A stretch of 64,000 nucleotides of DNA from Phycisphaeraceae bacterium D3-23 (lineage in GTDB: Bacteria; Planctomycetota; Phycisphaerae; Phycisphaerales; Phycisphaeraceae), in contig CP114179.1 in the NCBI GenBank assembly GCA_039555135.1, positions 930,001-994,000 on the forward strand, in the 5' to 3' direction. Every line of letters begins with the position of its first letter. The first letter of the stretch is position 1. Shown here piece by piece: positions 2,526 to 63,528 of the stretch. The translations under genes and the position numbers were made by a program. Below the pieces are notes generated by a model. It did no database searches. It had not been told where the DNA came from and was given only the letters and a program-made list of their open reading frames with translations.

Positions 2526-5500
2526 ATGCCCGCCCAAAAGAACAAGCCGCGACGACGACGCCTGCGCCGGCTCCTGGCCGTGCTCGCGGTGCTCCTGCTG
2601 CTCGCCGGCGGGCTCCCGCTGGCGGCGCTGTACTGGTACACCCGGCCCGCACAGCTCAAGCCCGTCGCGCAACAAGCATTGAAGGACCTCACCGGCTGCG
2701 ACGTCGTCGTCGGCCACGCCGAGGTCTCACGCGACGGCCGAGTCCACCTCGAAGATGTCGAGCTCCGCGTGCCCGGGCTCGATGGCGAGTACGCCCTGCT
2801 CGCCACGATCAAAACCCTCGACCTCTTCGGCGAGCCGCGCGGCCTCATCGACGGCACCTACGCCCCCCACCGCGTCGAGGTCGACGGGCTGTCGTTACGA
2901 CTCACCGAGGACGCCGACGACGGCACGTTCAACTACGAGCAGCTCGTCCTGCCCCAGGATACCGAGACCCAAGAGGCGGCCGCGATCCCGATGATCCGGC
3001 TCCGCCGCAGCGCCGTACGCTTCGGCCGGCGCGGCGAAGGCGACCGCGTCGAGCCCTTAGGCGAGATGCACATCGAGGGCGACCTCAACGCCGAGTCGCT
3101 CACCGACCGGCTCTATACCTTCGCGCTGCGCGAGACCGATGCGCAGACCGGCCAGCCCGACCCGCAAGGCGCGGAGTTTCTCGGCCGCTTCAGCATCGAG
3201 TCCCCGCTCGTCGAGCTCACCGTCAACCGGTTCAGCCTCGCCGACGAGCAGCGATTCTTCGTCCCCGCCGAGTTCCGCGACTACTGGGCCCGGCTCGCGC
3301 CCGAGGGCGACGTCACCCGCCTCACCCTCGCGCTGGGGCCTGATGCACAAAACCGCTTCTCCGAAGAAAACGCCAAGCTCGAGATGGAACTCGAAAACAT
3401 CGGGCTCAACCTCAACATCCTGGGCGCTCAGGACCCCGACATGCGCGAGGCCGCGCTGCTGCTGAACACGATCGAGACTCGGCTGACCGGGCTGCGCGGC
3501 AAGCTCATCCTCGAAGGCGGGCGTTGGCGGCTCGAAGAATCGACCGGCCGCGTCAGCCAGTACGGCATCGGGCTCAGCCCCGTGGTCTACCACATCGACG
3601 CCCAGGGCGGGCTCGGGCTCAGCGATCCCTACGACATCGCGATCACCACCGAGCCGTTCACGCTCAAGGACCGCTTCGAGTTCCTCCTTGCGATGTCGCC
3701 ACTCACCAGCGAGGGCTACCGCCGGTTCCGCCCCAGCGGCGCCATGTCGCTCTCCGCCCGCTTCACCTCCGACGGCTCGGACGCGCCGCCCGACTGGGGC
3801 ATCCGCCTCAACCTCATCAACGCAAAGATGGTCCACGAGCTCTTCCCGCTGCCGATCACATCGCTGCGCGGGACGATCGACATCACGGGCGAGCAGGTCA
3901 CGATCGACGGGCTCACCGGCGAGACACCGTCCGGCGCGGCCGTCTTACTCGCCGGCACCGCGACCCCCGCGAGCGATATCGCCGAGGTCGACCTCACGAT
4001 CGATATCACCGGCCTCCCCATCGACGAGCACCTGCTGAGCGTGCTCAAGCCCAACGAGCGCGACAACCTCAACCGCTTCCTCGACCAGACCGCATACGAC
4101 GGGCTCGTCGAACGCGGGCTCATCAGCACGGACGGCGACGGCGCACCGCGCTTCGTCCTCGGCGGCAGCGTCGATGTCCATGTCCCGGTGTTTAGGCCCT
4201 ACGGCGAGGAAGCCGACTACTCCATCGTCCCCGTGCTCGAACTCGCCGGGCTCAACGCGCTGATGCGCGACTTCCCCTACCCCGTCACCGTCACCAGCGG
4301 CAGCGTGCAGGTCGGGCCCGACTTTGTCGTCGTCGACAAGCTCTCGCTCGCGTCGCCCACCGGCGGCGCGCTCACGGTCGACGGCCGGGCCGACAAAGAC
4401 TCCGACACCGGCGACTACCTCCCTGTCCTGATGGTCACCGACGCCGCGCTCCCCGCCGACGCCCTGCTGCTCGCCGCGATCGGCGGTGAGGCGGAAACAC
4501 TCCTCACCGACCTGCACCTCACCGGGCTCCTGCGCATCGCCGGGCCCATCGAGCAGCGGACCGGCGAGATCGACCCGGGCATGACGCTCGACGTCGTCCT
4601 CACCGACGCCAGCGTCAACCCCTTCGGCGGCGCGGTCACACTCCACAACGTCGCCGGCGCACTCACGCTCCACGGCAAAGCGATCACCGACCTCCGCTTC
4701 ACAGGCGACTGGCGTGACGGCGCTTCGCTCGTTGTCACCGGCGGCGTCGAATGGGGCAGCGACGACCCCGACTCCGGCAACCCCATCACCGAGGCGGACC
4801 TGCTATTCAGCGCCGCCGATTTCTTCTTTGATGACGACCTGCTGGACCTCTTGCCCGCCGACAGCGACACGCGCGCAGAGTTGGCGGAGCTTTACGCGAT
4901 CTACGACCCCGTCGGCGGGTTTGACGCCCAGCTGACCTGGCGGCCGACGAGCCGGCATGCCCCGGACGACTTCGAGGTCGAGCTCTCGCCGCGCGACCTT
5001 GCACTCAACCTCTTGGGCGGTCGGCTTTCACTCACGGGGATTACCGGCGGGGCGCATATCTCGCCCGACCTGCTGACGCTGCACAACCTGGGCGGGACGT
5101 TCACCGACGCCGACGGCGCGACGGGCACGCTCGAGGCCGACGGCACAGTCACGATCGCCGACGACCCCGACATCGCGCTGCGGCTGGCGGGCGAGACCAG
5201 CGCGATCGGCGCGACCGCTCGGCTGCTGCTGCCCGACAAGACGGTGGGTGTGCTCGACGCGATCGCGTGGGACGGCGGGTTCACGATGCGCGACGGCCGG
5301 CTGGAGATGACCGAGGTCGGCGGCACCGAGCAGGCCACAAGCTTCGACGCCACCGCACAGTTCGCCGGCGTCGGGATGACGATCGGTGGTGTGCCGCTCA
5401 CCGAGGTGGACGCGACGCTCGCGGTGGTCGTCGACGACACGCCTCGCCGCGACATCCCGCGCATGTCGTTCGAGCTGGACTGCTCGTCGCTCATCGCGAT

Positions 5501-30659: not shown

Positions 30660-30990
30660 TCTGGCCTTGGCAACCGCCCCGCTTCCCTTGGGGACGGCCG
30701 AAGGTTCCGGGGGGGATCGTTGGGGTTTGTCGGGGGGTTGGCGGGGATTTGTGGGGAGGCGGCAGGGCATCTTGGGGGAGCGCGGACGAAGCTGCTGGAC
30801 ACGGCGAGTAATCCCCGGGAATCGCCGCGGTTTCCTGGGGAGACGGCAAGGTTTCCCGGGGATACGCGGAAGTTTCCCGGGGAACTGGCGAAGTTTCCAA
30901 GGTAAATGAGGAAGATTCCATGGAAAACGTGAGGCAAACCATGGAAAATGCGGTATTTCCTATCGTTTTCGTTATGCAAACCATGGAAAA
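30660..30990. repeat. 21-bp-periodic degenerate repeat array 1
   Basis: About 15 units recur every 21 bp (two spacings are 22). Each has a TTCC-x-x-GGGGA-like core and a variable remainder, for example TTCCCGGGGATACGCGGAAG and TTCCCGGGGAACTGGCGAAG, then TTCCAAGG..., and finally ATGGAAAA... units spaced 21 and 42 bp. The array starts about 110 bp after the endonuclease gene and holds no credible gene. Read on the minus strand it gives Pro-ending heptapeptides, a consequence of the period. The array at 46425-46664 has the same period. Confidence 0.75.
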
Positions 30991-32704: not shown

Positions 32705-32777
32705 GGCCTTGGGGTTTGGGGGTTTGGGGGTTTGGGGGTTTGGGGGTTTGGGGGTTTGGGGGTTTGGGGGTTTGGGT
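32705..32777. repeat. Tandem TTTGGGGG octamer array
   Basis: About eight copies of TTTGGGGG with the first unit one G short. The run of G5 tracts could form G-quadruplexes on the plus strand. It lies in a 490-bp gap upstream of the PEP-CTERM gene. The rest of the gap (32467-32704, 32778-32956) shows no gene. Confidence 0.9.
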
Positions 32778-45577: not shown

Positions 45578-46278
45578 CTACGCCGCCTTCAACACCGACC
45601 CATACCCCACCCGCGCCGACACCGGCTGCGCCGCACGCCCCGGCTTGAGCCGCGCATCCAGCCAGCTCGCCGTCACCCACACCATGGTGCCCGGCGGCGC
45701 GACACCCGCCGGCAACGTAAACGCCATCTCCAGCTTCGTCGTGTTCCCCGCCAGCGTGTATTCCTCCAACGTCCGCGGCGGCTCATCCGCGATCGCCCAG
45801 TACACCGCCGCACCCACCGAACCGCTCGGCCGCCTGCGCGCGCATACCCCTCACCCCGCAGCGTCACCAACACACGCCGGCTGTCCGCCTTCACCCGCAC
45901 CTTCGGCCCACGCCCCTGCTCAACATTCGCCGCCGCGCCCTCCGCGCCCACCGCCTCGCCACCGGCACGCAGCAGGCCCAGCTTCAACAGGACTTCCGGT
46001 GTCACGCCCGGCTGCGCCCGCACCAGCCGCGCCAACACCCGCGTCTCCTTCACCACCGCCTTGCGCATCCGGTCCTTCACCATTACCGTCCGCACCCCGC
46101 GCGTCATCGGCTGCTGCGACGCCAGGTACGCCGCCGCGAACTCCTGCTGCAGGGCCGCGTAGTCCGCCGCCTGCTGCGCCGTCAGCCCCAGCCCGGCCGG
46201 GTCATGCTGAATCCCCTGCGCAAACACGCGCGTCCAATCCCTCAGTGCCGCATCCCGCCGGGGCAAGAAATCCGCCAT
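45578..46278 (-). pseudogene. Conserved planctomycetal protein, frameshifted at a GC-dinucleotide run
   Basis: A protein of ~233 residues when corrected. The first part reads MADFLPRRDAALRDWTRVFA, a helical domain with 'LTAQQAADYAALQQEFAAAY', then 'PKVRVKADSRRVLVTLRGEGYA'. The frame then becomes Arg/Trp-rich, while another frame continues with 'GSVGAAVYWAIADEPP', 'EEYTLAGNTTKLEMAF' and 'VWVTASWLDARLKPGRAAQP'. The junction is an extra GC in GCGCGCGC (45835-45843). This two-domain family is frequent in planctomycetes and of unknown function. GGAG lies 7 nt before the ATG. Confidence 0.8.
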
Positions 46279-46310: not shown

Positions 46311-46372
46311 AGGTGGCACAGGCATCTTGCCTGTGTGTCTTGGGATTCACAGGCAAGATGCCTGTGCCACCG
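46311..46372. repeat. Inverted palindromic repeat (GGCAAGATGCC type)
   Basis: GGTGGCACAGGCATCTTGCC and its inverted counterpart GGCAAGATGCCTGTGCCACC flank a short spacer. The same layout occurs in the repeats at 12157-12181, 12938-12956 and 16947-16968. Confidence 0.85.
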
Positions 46373-46424
46373 CCCAAACCGCCCTATCGGCCAACGTTTC
46401 CGCCCGAGTTCAACCCCCGCCCCC

Positions 46425-46664
46425 AAGTCCGATAGACCCGCCCCCGGATACCAAACCCCCGAACCCCGAACCCCAATCCCGGTCCCTAAGTTCCGGGGGC
46501 CCGTCCCTAAGTTCCGGGGGCCTGTCCCCGGGTCCCGACCATCCGCCCCCGGGCCCCGATCCCGCGTCCCAGGATCCCGCAAGCCCGTCCCCAAGCCCCA
46601 AAGCCCCGTCCCCGGGTTCCGGGGGCCCGTTCCCGGAGTCCGGGGGGCCGTTCCCGGGCACGGA
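46425..46664. repeat. 21-bp-periodic degenerate repeat array 2
   Basis: Eleven consecutive 21-bp units without a single indel, for example AAGTTCCGGGGGCCCGTCCC (first 20 of a unit, twice in a row) then GGGTCCCGACCATCCGCCCC. The conserved positions are xxG-T/C-CCG at the start and CG/CC-TCCC at the end, with a variable core. The plus-strand frame gives heptapeptides ending in Pro (KFRGPVP, GSRPSAP, KPQSPVP), but flanking sequence does not look like a protein. Period matches array 1 at 30660-30990. Confidence 0.85.
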
Positions 46665-46739
46665 TGCGGGAATCATGCCGCTAAGAGAACCAACAGGCCC
46701 GGAAACAAGCACAGCGAACCCCCGGGAGGGGAGAACAAG

Positions 46740-46982
46740 CTATTCGATCATCTCGCCGCAGTGCTTACAGAACTTGCCGATCCAGTCTCGCTTGAAAGTC
46801 AGGTACTCCCCGCAGTGCGGGCAACGGCTCGCCCAACTCGCGCAGAGCATGAAGAACAGCGCAGCCACAATACACCCCCACATCAGACCAGTCGAAGTCT
46901 TGCCCAACAAAGCACCCACGCATGCACACCCCAGGAACAAAAAGACAAACCCCCTCGCCTTGTGAATCTTGTGCTTCTTCAT
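46740..46982 (-). CDS. Small zinc-ribbon membrane protein, copy 2
   Basis: An 80-residue paralogue of 43115-43357: MKKHKIHKAR, two hydrophobic helices ('GFVFLFLGCACVGALLG', 'GCIVAALFFMLCASWA') and the ribbon CPHCGEYLTFKRDWIGKFCK...HCGE. The near-identical ends and different middle show recent duplication with drift under constraint. Function unknown. Confidence 0.75.
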   Translation of the reverse strand: MKKHKIHKARGFVFLFLGCACVGALLGKTSTGLMWGCIVAALFFMLCASWASRCPHCGEYLTFKRDWIGKFCKHCGEMIE

Positions 46983-47228
46983 ACTGCCAAAAGTATAAGG
47001 GTGTGCGATGTGACAGCGATGAGAAAACAGCATACGCCATCACCATTACCGGGGAGTCACAGCCCGCCACCTCGACCATCCCCAAAGCACAAGAACACAC
47101 ACCCGACACCCCATCGCGTGGGAACCAAGCCAGTAAGAAGCGTGTGACTGCCCCGGTGCATTCCTGCCAGCATCAAGGTCAAGCCCCACCCGTTCCGGGG
47201 CATCGCCAATCCTCTGCCATCCGGCGTA

Positions 47229-60702: not shown

Positions 60703-63528
60703 ATGGCCAAGAAAACGACCAAGAAGAAGTCCAGCAAGAAGACGACGCGCAAGAAGTCCGCGTCGAAGGGACGCTGGACCGCCAACCCCAAGGCCGCCGA
60801 GGGCAAGCACCTGGTTATCGTCGAATCGCCGACCAAGGCCAAGACCATCAACAAGTACCTCGGCCCGGGCTACCACGTCATGGCCAGCGTCGGCCACGTC
60901 CGTGACCTGCCCCCCCGGAATCCCAAAGGGGTGAAACGCCCTGTCCCAGGGGTCGACCTCGACAACGACTTCGAGCCCGACTACGAGGTCATGGCCGACT
61001 CGAAGAAGACCGTCAGCGAACTACGCCAGGCCGCGAAGCTGGCAGAAGACGTGTGGTTCGCGACGGACCTCGACCGTGAAGGGGAGGCGATCGCCTGGCA
61101 CGTCGCCCACGCGTTGAAGTACCCGATTGAAGACGCCAAGCGCGTCGTCTTCAACGCCATCACCAAGAAGGCGATCGAAGAAGCGTTCAGCCACCCGCGG
61201 CCGCTCGAAACCAACCGCGTCGATGCGCAGCAGGCCCGGCGGATCCTCGACCGTATCGTCGGCTACCAGGTCTCGCCATTACTCTGGAAGAAAGTCGCCG
61301 GGGGCTTGAGCGCTGGCCGGGTACAGTCCGTCGCGACGCGACTCGTCGTCGAACGCGAACGCGAGATCGAGGCGTTCATCCCCGACGAGTATTGGCGCAT
61401 CGGCGGCATCTTCGCGACGAACGTCGCCGACGCGGCAAAGCTCGCCAAGCAGTGGCACGACTTCTTCTACGTCGGCGAAGAGGAAAACGACAAGACCGTC
61501 AAAGAACAGAACGCCTGGCTCAGCGAACGCGCCTGCCTGCGCAGCGAACTGGCCGAGTTCGGAGGCAAACCCTTCAGGCCGACCGACCGCAAACAGGCGC
61601 TCGCCGCGGCCCAGGCGCTGGGCTTCAAACGCAGCGACACCAACGAGTGGGAAGACGAAAAGGCCAAGGGCCCGGCCAAAGACCGATGCGTCTACCTCGG
61701 CGACATCGCGGGCGATGCGCCGGCGTACAGCATCGAATCCATCGAGACCAAGCGCACGACCAGCCGGCCCTCCCCGCCGTTCATCACGTCCACGTTGCAG
61801 CAGCAGGCGTCCACCCGGCTGGGCTTCCAGCTCAAGCGCACCATGCGCGTCGCGCAGCAGCTCTACGAAGGCATCGACCTCAAGGGCGCTCGCGGGCAGA
61901 CGGGTTTGATCACCTACATGCGGACCGACTCGACGTTCCTCTCACCCGAGGCCATCAACATGGCCCGCGACTTCGTCAAGCAAAAACACGGCGGCGACTA
62001 TCTGCCCGAAAAGCCCAACTTCTACAAATCGTCAAACAAAGACGCGCAGGAAGCCCACGAAGCCGTCCGCCCCACCGACGCGACGATCACCCCCGAGTCG
62101 ATCTGCGGCGCGCTCAACGAAGAGCAGTACAAGCTCTACGATCTGATCTGGCGTCGCTTCGTCGCCTGCCAGATGGTGCCCGCGAAGTGGGACTCGACCG
62201 CGATCACGATCAGGCCCGATTCCGTCGATGCACGCTTCCGCGCGACGGGGCGAACGCTCGTCTTCGACGGCTTCCTCAAGGTCATGGGCATCCCCAAGTC
62301 CGACGACGTGATCCTCCCGCCGCTCGAAGAAAAGCAGCCACTCGGCCCCGTCGATCTCAACCCGACGCAGCACTTCACCAGCCCCCCGCCGCGCTACAAC
62401 GAGGCCTCGCTCCAGAAGAAGCTCGAAGAAGAGGGCATCGGCCGCCCCTCCACCTACGCCGCGATCATCGGCACGATCCAGGACCGCAAGTACGTCGAGA
62501 CCGTCACCCCGCGTGACCGCCGACTCCGCGCGACGGACATGGGCAAGGTCGTCACCGACATGCTCGTCAAGGCCTTCCCCAAGATCCTCGACCTGGGCTA
62601 CACCCGCGAGATGGAAGCGCACCTCGACGAGATCGAATCCGAGAACAAGGATTGGCGCGAGACGCTGCGCGAGTTCTACGACCCGTTCAAGGATGCGCTC
62701 GAGCACGCCCACGAGAACCTCAAGCACGCCAAGGCCGAGACCCAGCCCGCGCCCGACGACCTCAAGTGCCCCAAGTGCGGCAGCCCGACCGAGTACAAGT
62801 TCGGGCGCAACGGCCGATTCCTCTCGTGTACCGCCTTCAACGTCCCGCCCGTCGAGGTCGCCCTCGAGGGCCATCCCGGCACGTGGTTCCTGCACAAAGC
62901 CAAGGGCAAGGCCCGCCCCAAGGTCATGAGCGAAGACCAGAGCGAAAAGGTCAACTGGACCAAACTCGCCAAAGACGACCAGAAGACGTTTATGGCGCTT
63001 TCGGATGAAATGCCAGAACCGTGCAAGTACGCCGCGCCGATCGACGCGGAGGGGCAACCCATGGAGCCTGAGCAGACCGACATCCTGTGCCCCGACCCGC
63101 CCGAGGGCGATGGGCTGCCGATGATCAAACGCACCGGGCGCTTTGGCCCGTTCCTCGCGGCGGCGAGCTACCCGGACGTGCAGTACATCGTGAAGCTCAA
63201 CGCGAAGACCGGCGCGGTCGAGCTGCCCAAGCCCCCGCCGATGCACACCGACCTGACGTGCAGCAAGTGCGAGTCGATGCTGTACGTCCGCGACTCCAAG
63301 CGAGGCTTGTGGCTGAGTTGTTCGGCCTTCCCCAAGTGCCGTGGCCGCGAGAGCTTCGGCAAGCTGGACGAGGACGTGCAGGCCAAGCTCGAAAAGCAGT
63401 GGAAGAAGCACCTCAAAGACAACCCCCTGCCCGACATCCGCACGACCGACGGGCGGGTTTTAGAGGAAGGCGACAACTACATCCCGGTCGTCCAGGGCCA
63501 GGACGAGCCCGCGGAGGTTGGGGGATAG
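60703..63528 (+). CDS. topA: DNA topoisomerase I
   Basis: A 941-residue type IA topoisomerase that relaxes negative supercoils. The N-terminus is Lys/Ser-rich (1-35). The TOPRIM domain has 'LVIVESPTKAKTI' with Glu41 and 'DLDREGEAIAWH' with Asp122, Asp124 and Glu126. The active-site tyrosine is Tyr405 in 'GLITYMRTDST'. Later are 'EEGIGRPSTYAAII' and C-terminal zinc-ribbon-type segments (CPKCG from Cys689, CSKCE from Cys853). The first ribbon lacks its fourth Cys ('CTAFNVPP'), and ~110 unusual residues separate the two. The frame is intact over 2.8 kb. Confidence 0.95.
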   Translation: MAKKTTKKKSSKKTTRKKSASKGRWTANPKAAEGKHLVIVESPTKAKTINKYLGPGYHVMASVGHVRDLPPRNPKGVKRPVPGVDLDNDFEPDYEVMADSKKTVSELRQAAKLAEDVWFATDLDREGEAIAWHVAHALKYPIEDAKRVVFNAITKKAIEEAFSHPRPLETNRVDAQQARRILDRIVGYQVSPLLWKKVAGGLSAGRVQSVATRLVVEREREIEAFIPDEYWRIGGIFATNVADAAKLAKQWHDFFYVGEEENDKTVKEQNAWLSERACLRSELAEFGGKPFRPTDRKQALAAAQALGFKRSDTNEWEDEKAKGPAKDRCVYLGDIAGDAPAYSIESIETKRTTSRPSPPFITSTLQQQASTRLGFQLKRTMRVAQQLYEGIDLKGARGQTGLITYMRTDSTFLSPEAINMARDFVKQKHGGDYLPEKPNFYKSSNKDAQEAHEAVRPTDATITPESICGALNEEQYKLYDLIWRRFVACQMVPAKWDSTAITIRPDSVDARFRATGRTLVFDGFLKVMGIPKSDDVILPPLEEKQPLGPVDLNPTQHFTSPPPRYNEASLQKKLEEEGIGRPSTYAAIIGTIQDRKYVETVTPRDRRLRATDMGKVVTDMLVKAFPKILDLGYTREMEAHLDEIESENKDWRETLREFYDPFKDALEHAHENLKHAKAETQPAPDDLKCPKCGSPTEYKFGRNGRFLSCTAFNVPPVEVALEGHPGTWFLHKAKGKARPKVMSEDQSEKVNWTKLAKDDQKTFMALSDEMPEPCKYAAPIDAEGQPMEPEQTDILCPDPPEGDGLPMIKRTGRFGPFLAAASYPDVQYIVKLNAKTGAVELPKPPPMHTDLTCSKCESMLYVRDSKRGLWLSCSAFPKCRGRESFGKLDEDVQAKLEKQWKKHLKDNPLPDIRTTDGRVLEEGDNYIPVVQGQDEPAEVGG

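Follow-up and report, generated by a model that had tools for sequence, protein, structure and literature searches.

The 21-bp array in the window belongs to a recurring two-part module, in which a degenerate tandem array is followed by a gene of one, apparently undescribed, protein family. Dozens of like-spaced arrays lie before family genes, and the window array therefore looks like part of a genetic module that has gone unrecognised so far. The window is the whole stretch of DNA analysed here, 64,000 bp long (bases 930001–994000 of the source genome, a single contig of 4.62 Mb).

The window array and its ortholog

The following features of the window were recognized, with the evidence for each in brackets:

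46416–46667, no strand assigned: 21-bp array of 12 units, top conserved block GGGGACGGG on the minus strand (lag identity and ortholog in genome G002)
46377–46392, minus strand: conserved stretch flanking the array toward the gene, GGCCGATAGGGCGGTT, with no difference in G002 (direct sequence comparison)
46312–46371, no strand assigned: dispersed palindrome between array and gene, with 24-bp arms and a 12-bp spacer (own-genome search)
45581–46278, minus strand: family gene (helical plus FN3-like; label “MADFLP” coined here), frame broken (profile matches)
46740–47033, minus strand: small protein gene with weak zinc-ribbon matches below the Pfam cut-offs (conserved, at the same place in G002)
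30660–30987, no strand assigned: second 21-bp array of another sequence, with units like TTTCCCGGGGAACTGGCGAAG (lag scan)

The array is a real 21-bp periodic repeat. Its 12 degenerate units, each exactly 21 bp long, follow one another from 46416 to 46667 without a slip. The original prediction had placed eleven units in 46425–46664; the array was thus recognized correctly, and its extent has to be enlarged. Within 46425–46664 the identity at lag 21 was 0.626, compared with a mean of 0.321 (sd 0.033) in 2000 dinucleotide-preserving shuffles, none of which reached 0.626 (z 9.2). This bears out the slip-free periodicity that had been proposed. A lag of 42 also gave a signal (z 6.4), as did a lag of 7 (z 4.5), the latter pointing toward a weak heptamer sub-period.

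The minus-strand consensus of the array is CCTTCGGGACCCGGGGACGGG. The most conserved unit columns were 13–21 and 6–7 (0.6 to above 0.9), and the most variable were 1–4. The predicted division of the unit into conserved and variable parts therefore stands, but not the idea that all conserved bases face one side of the helix: the main conserved block is nine contiguous bp long and so spans almost one turn of the helix, and its bases do not all lie on one face.

The array sits between the zinc-ribbon-like small gene (46740–47033) and the family gene, which starts at 46278. Two profile matches cover the family gene, 45796–46278 for model positions 1–160 and 45581–45841 for positions 143–228, and the frame changes around their overlap (45796–45841). 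The palindrome gave 28 matches at E ≤ 0.01, in about 15 places of its own genome, and looks like a REP-type element; it was not seen at the G002 ortholog locus. A search of the own genome found the array sequence nowhere else (next best match E 0.011), and other arrays there have the same period and a different sequence.

G002 is a relative from the same genus. Its array (L042, about 4341–4550) consists of ten 21-bp units and is flanked by the counterparts of both window genes. The two arrays have 81% of their consensus letters in common and their column information is correlated (r 0.71), so that both the period and the column conservation recur in a related genome. In G002 an extra open frame separates the array from the family gene, in the gap occupied by the palindrome in the window.

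Arrays precede many genes of the family

The loci were gathered by protein search, not by array, and the upstream DNA was examined afterwards. An array was called when the best lag among 10–49 was 20, 21, 40 or 42, with an identity of ≥0.6 over 84 bp, at most 1200 bp 5' of the gene. Arrays were found upstream of 53 of the 70 family members and of 2 of the 264 control genes, with the 0.6 threshold picked after arrays had been seen and the controls taken from the own genome only. Both control matches were at one family locus (L051), and belonged to the family gene itself and the gene next to it. With L042 hand-placed on its array, a threshold of 0.5 gave 63/70 family members and 33/264 controls, and a threshold of 0.65 gave 48/70 and 0/264. 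In the figure of 53 of 70, L042 was counted as a miss, since another gene intervenes and its true upstream 1200 bp reached 0.54 at lag 18. Left out of the 70 were L127 and L131, whose genes were already represented by L078 and L073, and left out of the association test were L140 and L145, whose gene start is missing. Identities of 0.55 at any lag from 10 to 49 were reached by 58 regions (hand-placed L042 included). All of them had their best lag at 20, 21, 40 or 42, which makes the period one of whole helical turns.

The frequency of arrays varied between the sets. In the first-search set 26 of 40 members had an array and 14 had none, and all 12 members from G051 and G100, both distant genomes within the phylum, had one. 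The named MAG loci carried an array in 15 of 18 cases (15 of 19 with L131, a miss, counted), and those labelled Bacteroidota, Azoarcus/Zoogloeaceae or Treponema in 10 of 11. The single locus of G034, outside the 70, had none. A later class-wide set, judged by the same criterion, had 11 members with an array and 12 without, of 23; L168, with only 261 bp upstream, and L186, where the N-terminus was not reached, were kept in this count. The array is therefore a frequent, not a universal, partner of the family gene.

We also scanned 464 kb of the own genome (20 evenly spaced stretches plus the window) for identities of ≥0.6 at a best lag of 21 or 42. Four regions were found: the two window arrays, one at L051 (2037) beside a family gene, and one at window position 62617, coding as judged by eye.

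Array architecture

The 60 arrays that we delimited had a median length of about 14 units. Spacing was 21 bp, sometimes 20 (period 20/40 at L084, L087, L091 and L093, where the 20 was assigned by hand after the lag scan), and in 11 of the 60 the doubled lag outscored the single one by over 0.05. Unit sequences differed between most loci and the spacing was kept (unit comparison: 32 of the 40 first-set regions); examples are GCACTGATGCACAGGCCTTCT (L064), ACTGGAACGACGGGTTCCAGA (L078) and GGTGTAAACGACCTGTTTACA (L006). A unit sequence common to different loci, as in an iteron or operator array, was not found. The median gap between array and gene was 207 bp in the Phycisphaerae sets versus 24.5 bp at 24 other loci. 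Outside the first set the arrays came to about 100 bp or less from the gene, and at L111 the array lay 249 bp before it.

Phase persisted over about 800 units, between whose neighbours 6462 mismatches were counted; this strictness is partly built in, because a fixed lag had been used to delimit the arrays. TRF with relaxed settings, noisy for indel statistics, gave some indels in 41 of 64 arrays among the matches listed. Conservation power peaked at periods of 21 and 10.5 bp, corresponding to one cycle and two cycles per unit. Predicted curvature, calculated with wedge parameters, was barely above that of permuted arrays (mean z 0.69).

Dyad symmetry was significant at p < 0.05 in 35 of the 60 arrays (3 expected) and at p < 0.01 in 20 (0.6 expected). 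The other 25, including the window array (z 0.9), had no significant dyad. Averaged over 33 dyad arrays, complementarity ran from about 3 bp off one centre, and there was none from about 5 bp at the other; the average dyad unit has two arms and a spacer of about 5 bp. Double changes were complementary in 257 of 561 cases (46%) at the dyad axis versus 1764 of 4970 (35%) at other axes, the cells not being independent. Covariation with a z of about 12, obtained by arm shuffling, was discarded, since a control for relatedness cut the effect to this difference. In G100 the units of L117 mostly read CGCTA...TAGCG, and those of L188, a relative array before a family-like gene (named by eye), mostly CGTTA...TAACG, a paired change in both arms. 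A minor leader motif, TTAAG-N8-24-GGCCGA, was present in 5 of 42 leaders, in none of 23 from the class set and in none of 264 controls.

The protein family

Family proteins are ~230 aa long. In the predicted structure (mean pLDDT 91.6, pTM 0.56) residues 10–100 are helical and the C-terminal part forms a sandwich, with FN3 domains as best Foldseek matches; a fold of the ToxN/CptN endoribonuclease type was not found in the model. No PDB chain matched the family protein below E 0.5. The family alignment used 29 of the 33 listed proteins. Among the 29 members searched, a single one had a Pfam match, and the NCBIfam matches comprised three models with one member each, all at E 0.002–0.008; PADLOC and PHROGs gave zero matches at 0.01. 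To judge by these comparisons the family appears undescribed, as none of the matches in Pfam, NCBIfam, PADLOC and PHROGs was convincing.

Matches at E ≤ 1e-6 were found in at least 29 of 150 genomes of the class and at least 4 of 119 genomes of the phylum (one borderline, 4e-7). The richest genome had at least 19 (19 candidates scored per genome). Named relatives include MAGs labelled Prevotellaceae, Bacteroidales, Azoarcus, Zoogloeaceae and Treponema, labels that can err. No relatives were found among viral contigs (queries A2 and L112), phages (one query, L112) or plasmids (two queries, L112 and L071).

A GNAT-like gene was near the family gene in 22 of 72 loci, downstream wherever read, and matched Acetyltransf_7 at E 5e-5, below the Pfam cut-off. 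Ala-Ala ended 35 of the 37 family proteins from order-level relatives (L042, L063–L100) and was absent from 16 other members listed from G051/G100 and other phyla. Such an end resembles that of the tmRNA tag. An LDAA end was seen in 5 of the 12 GNAT-like neighbours listed.

A phased DNA element as the preferred reading

Our preferred reading, held tentatively, is that a helically phased DNA platform controls the downstream gene in cis. The array would act at the level of double-stranded DNA, where dyads in even phase, two turns each, would form a platform for copies of a putative dimeric DNA-binding or nucleoid-type protein. These copies would sit on one helix face and bind cooperatively, and the bound platform would set the expression of the downstream gene, probably by silencing or insulating it. 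Units could be gained or lost in steps of 21 or 42 bp and recombine between paralogous loci, so that their sequence would drift or be replaced with the function kept, because phase and symmetry would be read rather than one sequence.

In favour of this reading are the association of arrays with loci gathered by protein search, the confinement of best lags to 20, 21, 40 and 42, the complementary double changes at the dyad axis, the like numbers of G.T and A.C mismatches in the stems, and the conservation peaks at 21 and 10.5 bp. Judged from sequence, the two-turn dyads could suit such a phased element. An orphan array with a conserved leader (L187, 4740–5120), which is 74% identical to that of L071 and lies in front of a gene named by eye as NeuB-like, with no family gene, could also fit a cis element. 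The DNA platform has to be weighed against the 25 arrays with no significant dyad, the moderate compensation, the predicted curvature barely above that of permuted arrays, the TRF indels, the short gene gaps at which a transcribed leader would be equally natural, and the first-set and class-set members with no array. The phased protein-binding array first proposed is partly supported, in that the two-turn spacing is kept in dozens of arrays of unrelated sequence, over half of them (35/60) dyad-symmetric; as one sequence bound by one protein it is not supported.

Iterons and phased operator arrays, such as those of plasmid origins and ParR/omega-type centromeres, consist of short repeats set in tandem and in register with the helix, many of them dyad-symmetric, and have one common sequence and one dedicated protein. 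The arrays described here are likewise tandem, in register and often dyad-symmetric, but their sequence varies by locus, and the sole neighbour family seen at many loci is the GNAT-like gene. They resemble REP/BIME elements with RAYT as intergenic palindromic repeats in many copies, and differ in being tandem, of fixed period and unrelated in sequence between loci. PARCEL elements are dyad-symmetric tandem repeats across phyla that encode 25-residue protein repeats (PMC2996958); our arrays share the symmetry and the spread over several phyla with them, but look non-coding.

A literature search covering few subscription papers found no description of these arrays. They are possibly, if rather doubtfully, a new class of element, in which spacing and dyad symmetry, not sequence, hold the information, and which is paired with a mosaic multi-copy family in MAGs of four phyla. 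If so, a private array sequence would tag most copies, and one machinery could read them all, with the paralogs staying distinct. It would also be a rare case of selection on DNA architecture rather than on sequence. The dozens of unlike arrays are a natural experiment, and the element gives a first handle on a family with no annotation in the libraries searched.

Alternative explanations

We consider it fairly unlikely that transcription makes the array a leader or a small RNA with consecutive 21-nt stem-loops, by which the gene would be controlled or its product counteracted, as by the RNA of a type III toxin-antitoxin system. Arrays do lie directly 5' of the gene, often near the ribosome-binding site (as at the 24 loci outside the first set), and hairpins could form from dyads whose arms are about 5 bp apart. 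Folding energy was lower than in column-permuted arrays (37 arrays), but the two strands gained almost the same amount (mean z of −1.8 for sense and −1.5 for antisense). Stem mismatches were G.T in 109 cases and A.C in 97, both depleted alike, with no sign of G.U tolerance. With G.T about as common as A.C, the pairing looks unlike that of an RNA strand, and RNA helices were not supported. Sigma-70 hexamers matched 12/12 ahead of one array (L117), but promoters with a score of ≥9 were found at 26% of 23 5' edges versus 17% of 250 control windows, no clear enrichment.

As in the type III systems ToxIN, CptIN and TenpIN, tandem repeats lie immediately 5' of one small protein gene, an arrangement found at 53 of the 70 loci; the product as a toxin is only putative. 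ToxIN examples have repeats of 34–36 nt in 2.8–5.5 copies, with a terminator before the gene, and the repeats are conserved among close toxins (PMC5086642). Compared with these examples, our units are 20 or 21 bp long and number about 14, the predicted protein fold is another one, no RNA-type pairing was seen, and the units of close proteins are mostly unrelated.

It is unlikely that a mosaic family uses the arrays as exchange points for its FN3 domains and 5' modules, in which case misalignment in register would add or remove entire units and so preserve the phase. C-terminal parts with 85–94% identity do occur behind unrelated arrays and differing N-termini (L064/L065 and L065/L074), and many copies share one genome. 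Between L074 and L075 the sequence is the same from the middle of the array across the leader and up to the gene start; farther upstream the two diverge, and their alignment has one exact 21-bp gap. The pair shows exchange of a partial array, leader and gene start. The unlike units of each locus would, however, be poor substrates for exchange between loci, and the dyads and the common period in MAGs of other phyla are left unexplained. Array similarity did not correlate overall with whole-protein similarity (276 pairs, 24 loci). It exceeded 0.5 in the four pairs closest over the first 30 residues and was elsewhere independent of protein similarity.

Functionless minisatellites, made by local mutation in 21-bp steps (e.g., protein-limited slippage, with quasi-palindrome correction giving the dyads), are quite unlikely. 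Turnover is rapid and not every array is next to the family (exceptions at window 30660–30987, L101 and L187), but the arrays are associated with one gene family, orthologs have conserved columns in common, and phase is kept over the mismatched units noted above, in arrays picked at a fixed lag.

Hardly credible is the heptapeptide coding repeat, remnant or live, that the original prediction had offered as an alternative: long open frames span the window array on both strands, an open frame of G002 (L042, 4305–5735) passes through the array into the following frame, and similar repeat ORFs exist at L149 and L156, but codon phases did not contrast (0.118, against 0.137 after permutation of the arrays), there was no 3-bp peak in conservation, 23 of 56 arrays had no open frame over their (ragged-edged) length, open frames numbered 1.30 per array vs 1.14 expected, and period-20/40 arrays exist at four loci. 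The arrays are thus apparently non-coding.

Other repeats and neighbours

Rfam gave one match in 20 loci, a DUF3800-VIII RNA near a family locus (L087, 3740–3803, minus strand), outside the array. At L101 two adjoining 21-bp arrays with unlike units (505–875 and 990–1205), one of them with TGTAAAC-GACCT-GTTTACA dyads, lie between restriction-endonuclease-like and HPF-like genes (named by eye).

The second window array (30660–30987) has no family gene beside it. Its neighbours, named by eye, are a methylase/XRE/GIY-YIG-like cluster and a LURP-one-like gene. The latter matched only in its own genome, among 41 genomes, and therefore allows no comparison. At 32711–32776 the window contains a perfect 8-bp repeat, GGGGTTTG, in 8.2 copies.
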